Positions 57,518-60,569 of a stretch of DNA of 60,569 bases are shown here, piece by piece. The notes below the pieces were generated by a model that was not told where the DNA came from, did not search any database, and saw only the letters and a list, made by a program, of their open reading frames with translations. Both the position numbers and the translations under genes were made by a program. Each line of letters begins with the position of its first letter. Position 1 is the stretch's first letter. The DNA comes from Betaproteobacteria bacterium. Its GTDB lineage: Bacteria > Pseudomonadota > Gammaproteobacteria > Burkholderiales > Burkholderiaceae_E. Where the stretch lies: assembly GCA_016868175.1 (NCBI GenBank), contig VGHO01000002.1, positions 1-60,569 on the forward strand. The letters are read 5' to 3'.

Positions 57518-57840
57518 GAGGGTCTCCTGAAAACAAGCACACTAAGTGGGATTAACAGTCGGGAGGGCGCGCCCTTGCCCAGCGCTGCGTTACCCAGCGC
57601 TTCGTTACTCAGCGCTGCGTTTCTCAGAGCAGTGTTACAGAGAGCTGCGTTGCTCAGAGCTGCGTTATCCTGTGCTGCGCAGTTCTCGTTTGCAGCACCC
57701 GACGCGCCGCCGAACCGTCGCTGCTCTGCTAAGGGGCAGTCACCATCCAATTCGGGATGTTAACGGGGAGCGGGGAATTCCGCTGAAGACGAGGGCTTGG
57801 CGTAGGGTTGATACGGGATCACTGAGGAAAGACGACAGCA
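57518..57840. other. Divergent intergenic region with 15-bp repeats
   Basis: This 323-base region separates dctP (minus) from the antiporter gene (plus). It contains the dctP ribosome site AGGAG near 57528, seven 15-bp repeats (57578-57682), and the antiporter ribosome site GAGGAAAG near 57823. A minus-strand frame (57750 leftward) reads pentapeptide-like NAALS and NAALG units from the repeats and then runs out of frame over dctP, so it is not called a gene. Confidence 0.5.
57578..57682 (+). repeat. Seven degenerate 15-bp tandem repeats
   Basis: Units start at 57578, 57593, 57608, 57623, 57638, 57653 and 57668, with consensus CTCAGCGCTGCGTTA. Similarity decays from left to right. On the minus strand each unit reads an xNAAL or xNEAL pentapeptide. 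It lies in the dctP upstream region. Confidence 0.8.
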
Positions 57841-59550: not shown

Positions 59551-59937
59551 TCAGCCCTGAAGTACCAACTCCATGATGTCTGACCACGAAACCATGCCCA
59601 CGAGTTCGCCGTCGGCGCATACCGGCAGGTGGTGGAAGGTATTGTCGGCCATGAGCCGGATGCACTCCTGCACGCTCGCTTGCGGGCTTACCGTCACCAC
59701 CGAACGCGTCATGATCTGATCGATGGCGATCGCTGCGGGGTCAAGCCCCTGGCTTGCCACCTTCCGCTGGAAATCGCGGTCGGTGATGATGCCGAGAAGT
59801 TGCCGGTTTTCCACGACCAGCAAGGAGTGGATGTGGTGCTCGCGCATCGAATCGATCGCTTGAGCCACGCTGAGGTGCGGCCCGACGGTGAACAGTTCCT
59901 TTGGTTTGGCCTCGAGAAGCTCCGCAACAGTTTCCAT
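59551..59937 (-). CDS. CBS-domain protein
   Basis: The 128-residue product is almost entirely a tandem CBS pair (about 12-60 and 75-125): HLSVAQAIDSMREHHIHSLLVVEN with GIITDRDFQRKV, and SVQECIRLMADNTFHHLPVCADG with GMVSWSDIMELV. Such stand-alone pairs bind adenine nucleotides; the partner is unknown. The start at 59937 is chosen; the same frame continues open upstream through the 11-bp array to 60222, which would add an 11-residue-repeat extension. Confidence 0.9.
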   Translation of the reverse strand: METVAELLEAKPKELFTVGPHLSVAQAIDSMREHHIHSLLVVENRQLLGIITDRDFQRKVASQGLDPAAIAIDQIMTRSVVTVSPQASVQECIRLMADNTFHHLPVCADGELVGMVSWSDIMELVLQG

Positions 59938-60033
59938 GGCTTTCCCCCATGCGTGGACGATCCCGCAAGGATAGCAGGCGGCACTTCGTGGGCGGGCCAA
60001 TTCCGGGGAAGGCCTGCGCTTGAACCATCGGGC

Positions 60034-60209
60034 GTGCATCCGGGGTGAAGTCGGAGTGCACTCGGGATGTACTCGGGATGTACTCGGGCTGCACTCGGGA
60101 TGTACCCGGGGTGCACTCGGGATGTACTTGGGATGTACTCGGGACGTACTCGGGATGTACTCGGGATGTACTCGGGGTGGACTCGGGGTGGACCGGGGAT
60201 GTACTCGGA
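60034..60209 (+). repeat. 11-bp tandem array, about 16 copies
   Basis: Sixteen contiguous 11-bp units run from 60034 to 60209 with consensus RTGTACTCGGG. The first two (60034, 60045) and the last three are degenerate; the central units at 60067, 60078, 60133, 60155 and 60166 are identical. Each unit has the palindromic core GTAC or a one-base variant. The array ends two bases before the -35 box of the arsR promoter. Confidence 0.9.
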
Positions 60210-60210
60210 G

Positions 60211-60239
60211 TTGACTTTGCATTTTCCACCGTTTAAACT
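60211..60239 (+). promoter_or_regulatory. Sigma-70 promoter of the ArsR-family gene
   Basis: TTGACT (60211-60216, 5/6) and TAAACT (60234-60239, 4/6) are separated by exactly 17 bases. The -10 lies in the palindrome GTTTAAAC. The predicted start near 60247 gives a leader of about 90 bases before the GTG at 60335. Confidence 0.65.
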
Positions 60240-60241
60240 AT

Positions 60242-60263
60242 TCAAGAATTACACAAATCTTGA
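60242..60263 (+). promoter_or_regulatory. Inverted repeat at the arsR transcription start, candidate operator
   Basis: TCAAGA (60242-60247) and TCTTGA (60258-60263) are perfect 6-bp arms with a 10-base AT-rich spacer, covering the predicted start site. ArsR-family repressors typically bind AT-rich inverted repeats over their own promoters, so autoregulation is likely but unproven. Confidence 0.5.
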
Positions 60264-60334: not shown

Positions 60335-60569
60335 GTGGATGAGAAGGACGTTTTGCGGGCGCTCGCAGCACTTTCGCAGGGACACCGCCTTCAGGCCTTT
60401 CGGGCACTCGTGGTGGCGGGGTCCACTGGGCTGAGCGCTGGCGAACTGGCGTTGGCGGTGCGTCTTACCCCTGCCGCGCTTTCCTTCCATCTCAAGGAAC
60501 TGATGTATGCGGGGTTGATTACCCAGGAGCGACGCGGTCGCTTCCAGATCTATCGCGCCTGCTTTGAGC
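60335..60569 (+). CDS. ArsR-family transcriptional regulator, partial at right edge
   Basis: The visible 78 codons begin (GTG at 60335) with DEKDVLRALAALSQGHRLQAFRALV, followed by the winged-helix recognition region LSAGELALAVRLTPAALSFHLKELMYAGLI and the wing RRGRFQIYRACF. This is a clear ArsR-type helix-turn-helix. The metal or stress ligand sites cannot be assigned from the visible part. An in-frame GTG at 60320 is an alternative start; AAAGGG six bases before 60335 favours the later one. Confidence 0.85.
   Translation, partial: MDEKDVLRALAALSQGHRLQAFRALVVAGSTGLSAGELALAVRLTPAALSFHLKELMYAGLITQERRGRFQIYRACFE

Follow-up and report, generated by a model that had tools for sequence, protein, structure and literature searches.

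Near the end of the window, a 60,569-base stretch that makes up the entire contig C2 of a 353-contig, 2.95-Mb genome (G000), an 11-bp tandem array adjoins a promoter-like site known as a consensus match only. The array is probably a minisatellite private to this locus, near-neutral in origin and made by slippage or unequal exchange. Because the genome has many arrays with unrelated words, the most likely view is that the 11-bp array arose through repeat-making mutation and is not a special control site. Many sister arrays, their excess outside genes, the uniqueness of the unit and a lower array density in the same genus support this reading. Against it stand the outlying length of the array, its position at a promoter edge, which under the strict promoter definition is unlikely by chance, its invariant columns, and the lack of a lag-1 signal among its units.

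Results

Structure of the array and its locus

Laid out in register, the array contains 16 head-to-tail units with consensus GTACTCGGGAT at 60036-60211, in agreement with the roughly 16 copies described in a first-pass annotation of this DNA, and 14 of these units match the consensus at 8 or more of 11 positions. By chance, an 8-of-11 match to the unit occurs at 0.16% of the first 60,000 window positions. TRF called the array at 60060-60208, with a period of 11, 13.5 copies, 84% matches and a score of 207. A two-unit pattern with up to three mismatches matched 11 times in the window and not at all in 100 shuffles, and the locus thus has what defines a tandem repeat, namely head-to-tail copies of a unit of ~6-100 bp at a level well above chance.

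The core units were homogeneous and the left edge was degenerate. Five of 11 columns were invariant in the 14 core units, which could reflect constraint or shared descent. Adjacent core units were no more alike than distant ones (14 units, lag-1 p = 0.59), and the order of the units therefore bears no direct mark of local duplication; lag-2 similarity gave p = 0.05 when all 16 units were taken. Among the 146 arrays found in the genome, the 11-bp array ranked second by copies and 14th by score, and it is an outlier in length.

Features at and near the 11-bp array (coordinates refer to the window)
Feature	Position	Strand	Remarks
Unrelated tandem array, 15/30 bp	57580-57667		divergent dctP / ybaL-like intergenic region, 2.4 kb away
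Two-CBS-domain protein gene	59551-59940	-	divergent from arsR
Two degenerate left-edge units	60036-60057		7 of 11 matches each
Array core, 14 units of GTACTCGGGAT	60058-60211		8-11 of 11 bases matched per unit
Sigma-70-like promoter TTGACT-N17-TAAACT	60211-60239	+	consensus match only, 9 of 12 bases
Possible 17th, decayed unit	60212-60222		6 of 11 in register; weak
Inverted repeat TCAAGAATT-N4-AAATCTTGA	60242-60263		at expected transcription start, outside array; candidate ArsR-type operator
ArsR/SmtB-family regulator gene	60335-60569	+	start GTG 60335; truncated at contig end

The promoter-like site begins on the final base of the last array unit, and the near-consensus hexamers noted previously were indeed present, with 9 of 12 consensus bases, the −35 sequence at 60211-60216, the −10 sequence at 60234-60239, and a spacing of 17. 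Such sites are expected 0.3 times by chance in the 1170-base region scanned. An earlier statement that the array ends two bases before the −35 hexamer holds to within ~2 bases, as the TRF call ends at 60208 and the in-register layout at 60211, the first T of this hexamer. The possible 17th unit would hold five of the six −35 bases, in register with the TGTACT/TGGACT of other units. A 6-of-11 match is reached by 4% of window positions, and descent of the −35 hexamer from a decayed repeat unit is possible but weakly indicated by the sequence.

The neighboring genes were as originally described. The ArsR-type gene lies downstream of the array on the plus strand, and its truncated product scored 52.8 bits, just below the NCBIfam cut-off of 55. 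Its start is best placed at the GTG codon listed in the table, which gives the N-terminus MDEKDVLRALAALSQ in the window, compared with MEEQDVIKALAALAQ in close relatives. The CBS gene is divergent from it on the minus strand, and a promoter scan found no promoter-like site between the CBS gene and the array. No locus carrying both genes was found in relatives (29 CBS loci, 14 ArsR loci and three contigs of greater length; flanks were mostly 1.5 kb), and an empty, array-free site could therefore not be read. The array at 57580-57667 is a feature of the same kind as the 11-bp array, with a different unit. The nearest matches of the YbaL/KefB-like protein, among plasmid and chromid records, were Burkholderia and Cupriavidus proteins (~60%).

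Tandem arrays throughout the genome

We collected TRF arrays with a score of at least 60, with overlapping rows merged, from 41 stretches covering 821 kb of the 2,950-kb genome, mostly its largest contigs and including the window. These stretches contained 146 arrays (17.8 per 100 kb), compared with one in a single dinucleotide shuffle. Array density was 80 per 100 kb outside called genes and 8.8 per 100 kb inside them (83 and 63 arrays; ~nine times; binomial p = 6e-37), with genes called by a simple codon-usage script and not by a standard caller. In an all-against-all blastn-short comparison, no pair among the 146 arrays had sequence in common at E 1e-4; the genome thus resembles Borg elements in having numerous arrays with units private to each locus. 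The arrays in coding sequence also keep frame in a Borg-like manner, with periods divisible by 3 in 58 of 63 cases, as expected from a mutational process filtered by selection.

Outside genes, periods ranged from 6 to 81 bp. Here too, periods divisible by 3 were in excess (48 of 83, p = 6e-6; 36 multiples of 6 and 12 other multiples of 3), reflecting either missed genes or a mode of repeat formation that favors such lengths. In a separate observation on 33 contigs of this genome, eight arrays started in the first 500 bp of a contig (48.5 per 100 kb) and 113 elsewhere (17.1 per 100 kb), as though the assembly tended to break at repeats; the 11-bp array lies ~360 bp from a contig end.

Array density in relatives

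Samples from relatives consisted of pieces no longer than 20 kb. Three genomes of the same genus had 19 arrays in 402 kb (4.7 per 100 kb), about a quarter of the density in G000, a difference for which the lower G+C of the same-genus samples (0.51 overall versus 0.64; other relatives pooled, 0.644) may partly account. Other relatives, excluding G015, had 40 arrays in 597 kb (6.7 per 100 kb), ~38% of the G000 density. G015, a second repeat-rich relative represented by one 3.0-Mb contig, had 40 arrays in 200 kb (20 per 100 kb). Small samples of G034 (11 in 60 kb), G014 (6 in 40 kb) and G019 (9 in 80 kb) were also near the G000 density, and with more sequence G034 gave 15 arrays in 120 kb (12.5 per 100 kb). 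Two arrays were found in 100 kb of G068, and 10 in another 180 kb of relatives, taken as nine 20-kb samples. With the count limited to Borg-like arrays (2.9 or more copies and 50 nt or more), there were 64 in the 821 kb of G000, 20 in 200 kb of G015, three in 417 kb of the same genus and 23 in 851 kb of other relatives. The genome is therefore rich in tandem repeats, and this richness is marked yet not unique to it.

Repair genes

Single-strand exonucleases stabilize tandem repeats in E. coli. We searched for four repair families, mutS, recJ, xseA and the ExoI C-terminal family. Matches to mutS and xseA were present in G000, and the ExoI C-terminal family was missing in 27 of 31 genomes, among them all four of the genus. 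Of the four families, recJ was the only one that lacked a match in G000 but occurred in the same genus. In G003 and G004, recJ has a neighboring gene within which contig C80 breaks off, and any recJ gene at that position would fall beyond the contig; on the other side, the 367 bp upstream of prfB on contig C252 encode the C-terminus of another protein and no recJ. Either loss of recJ or an assembly gap would explain these results. As a cause of repeats, recJ loss was unsupported, as a recJ match, though below the cut-off, occurs in repeat-rich G015, and G068, with no recJ match, is repeat-poor (two arrays in 100 kb, although its G+C is 45%). G015 had no mutS match, in a genome rated 57% complete, which makes gene absences there unsafe. 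A cause of the genome-wide repeat richness was not found among the four families searched.

Arrays and promoters

According to one alternative, slippage alters the number of units upstream of the −35 hexamer and thereby changes arsR transcription by way of upstream contacts, the stiffness of the DNA or the distance to a distal site. The abutment of the array on the −35 hexamer and the 17-bp spacer fit this model, and there is a precedent in meningococcal nadA, whose expression is changed by repeats upstream of its promoter (PMC2791445). Against it, array density per 10 kb of intergenic DNA was 6.8 in divergent, 9.3 in tandem and 7.8 in convergent regions (17, 45 and 12 arrays), with no preference for promoter-bearing over convergent regions (chi-square p = 0.52; 74 of 83 arrays assigned).

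Strict promoter-like sites pointing away from an array and within 15 bp of its edge were found for two of the 83 arrays. Random placement gave an expectation of 0.25 (5 of 200 placements reached the observed number) or 0.34 (10 of 300), and such strict adjacency is thus seldom reached by chance. Within 60 bp of an edge, two strict sites were found compared with 0.80 expected (55 of 300 placements). The excess is faint, and it disappeared when the promoter definition was relaxed to 8 of 12 matches (2 versus 1.92 expected within 15 bp; 6 versus 5.36 within 60 bp). Taken alone, the adjacency of the 11-bp array to its promoter-like site is notable; arrays in this genome are generally not promoter features, however.

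Three further points count against tuning of arsR by unit number. First, none of 14 arsR loci fetched from relatives had an 11-bp array upstream, and four of the 14 had other short repeats within 600 bp. Second, the −35 hexamer is preceded by a G+C-rich array and not by an A+T-rich UP element. Third, the locus is known from a single assembly, in which variation in length cannot appear, and the searches turned up no other strain of the species. We consider this alternative unlikely. The first-pass annotation had proposed a regulatory role; the array, the promoter-like site and the ArsR-type gene on which it drew are all present, and the support they provide is positional. Similar 11-bp arrays scattered at random with no link to promoters, together with transcription indifferent to array length, had been named as the observation that would speak against that role, and the many arrays with unrelated units and without enrichment in any promoter class come close to that picture.

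The unit as a protein-binding site

The GTAC-containing unit might instead be the operator of a dedicated protein that binds cooperatively along one face of the helix. The 11-bp period and the five invariant core columns are compatible with this idea, and the GTAC cores had been described as lying on almost the same face. At 10.5 bp per turn, however, an 11-bp unit drifts by 17 degrees per unit, or ~240 degrees over 14 units; at 11.0 bp per turn, the units stay in phase. Supercoiled bacterial DNA has helical repeat values near 11 bp, and the single-face description would hold if the repeat in vivo is close to this value. Visual inspection showed no dyad in the unit other than GTAC itself.

A recognizable dyad lies outside the array. 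The inverted repeat downstream of the −10 hexamer has 9-nt arms that are 89% complementary and separated by 4 nt. Many ArsR proteins recognize dyads of this kind in the promoters of their own genes, making the inverted repeat a more ordinary candidate for autoregulation than the array. Control of arsR more probably operates through this element over the start site, as judged from its sequence and position.

Searches for the unit, which used two- and three-unit patterns and not single units, also argue against a dispersed operator. As the first-pass annotation had suggested, we looked for other GTACTCGGGAT arrays in the genome; the two-unit pattern with up to three mismatches revealed no second one. 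The two-unit pattern with up to two mismatches had no match in 60 relatives, and the three-unit pattern with up to three mismatches had none in the other 73 family genomes. With these patterns, then, the unit recurs neither at other loci nor in relatives, and we regard binding by a dedicated protein as very unlikely.

Scans of two wider collections, genome_contigs and viral_contigs, either of which may omit the genome of the window, gave a few matches. One contig, from the actinobacterium Homoserinimonas, carried a similar unit in ~3 copies amid unrelated sequence, and four viral contigs had ~2 copies each. Two-unit patterns preselect tandem matches, and these matches therefore say little. We rejected the notion of a repeat common to viruses, given the ~2 copies per viral contig and the fact that three of the four contigs carry one identical stretch. 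On one strand of G044, a control pattern (the unit backwards, up to three mismatches) had 18 matches, which points to an array built from a mirror-like 11-bp unit.

RNA folding and coding potential

Finally, the array might act as the leader of the CBS gene or encode an N-terminal repeat extension of its product. The lack of a promoter-like site between gene and array fits such an arrangement, and the CBS reading frame is open through the array to an ATG at 60222 (223 aa). All six frames of the ideal unit are free of stop codons, however, and the open frame joined to CBS thus carries little weight; moreover, the codon-usage caller starts the CBS gene at 59937. Minus-strand array RNA was no more stable than shuffled sequences (z about 0). 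Plus-strand RNA folded strongly compared with mononucleotide shuffles (z −4.1), but 64 of 300 column-permuted arrays were at least as stable, and special RNA structure was rejected on this basis. At Rfam gathering scores, the window contained two tRNAs only, and the array matched no known RNA family. A role for the array as RNA or as a coding extension of CBS is highly improbable.

Discussion

Our preferred explanation is a locus-private minisatellite. A short stretch bordering the predicted arsR promoter on its upstream side would have been duplicated and then expanded, probably by slippage during replication or by unequal exchange, in a lineage that appears prone to such events at many intergenic sites and, in frame, at coding sites. 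The array may have been tolerated because it occupies the gap that separates the CBS start from the arsR promoter and interrupts neither. Its edge units would then have decayed as the core stayed alike. We infer that the array is near-neutral and that any promoter effect is secondary; judging from the arrangement of the locus, an effect on arsR or CBS is possible.

A bolder view, which we find doubtful and would put forward as quite unlikely, is that the lineage has an active Borg-like process making locus-private arrays, that arrays at promoter edges become copy-number dials, and that tuning arrays have thus evolved independently many times over in the genome; in such a scheme, the −35 hexamer may itself be a decayed unit. 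The 11-bp array alone matters little. The genome-wide excess (~18 versus ~5 arrays per 100 kb in the same genus) makes this lineage, together with G015, good material for studying what starts and spreads arrays in bacterial chromosomes and whether those that land at promoters acquire function.

Betaproteobacterial tandem-repeat richness of this kind was absent among the matching titles listed from open-licence literature, in searches for which the letters of the unit were not a query. Three known systems offer comparisons. First, lake Planctomycetota have intergenic tandem repeats that were ascribed to polymerase slippage and tied to deletions in populations (PMC9426551). Like these repeats and bacterial VNTR loci, the arrays described here include tandem repeats in intergenic DNA; unlike them, they occur in a betaproteobacterium-like genome known from a single assembly. 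Second, nadA of Neisseria meningitidis has a TAAA tract upstream of its promoter, with 4-bp units, demonstrated phase variation and flanking operators (PMC2791445). Like this tract, the 11-bp array is a tandem repeat with an upstream position, in its case relative to a promoter-like site, but its units are 11 bp long, and phase variation and tract-flanking operators are features of nadA. Third, Borg elements, the closest published pattern that we found, have unique arrays genome-wide, both genic and intergenic, with genic periods divisible by 3, and such arrays are rare in the host (PMC9879509). In both cases, units are virtually unique to each locus and genic arrays keep frame, and arrays are sparser in a reference group, the same-genus samples here and the host there. 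Borg units are perfect and A-rich, whereas the array described here has 84% matches and the unit GTACTCGGGAT in a chromosome of 64% G+C, and intergenic periods divisible by 3 make up 14-38% in Borgs compared with 48 of 83 in this genome.
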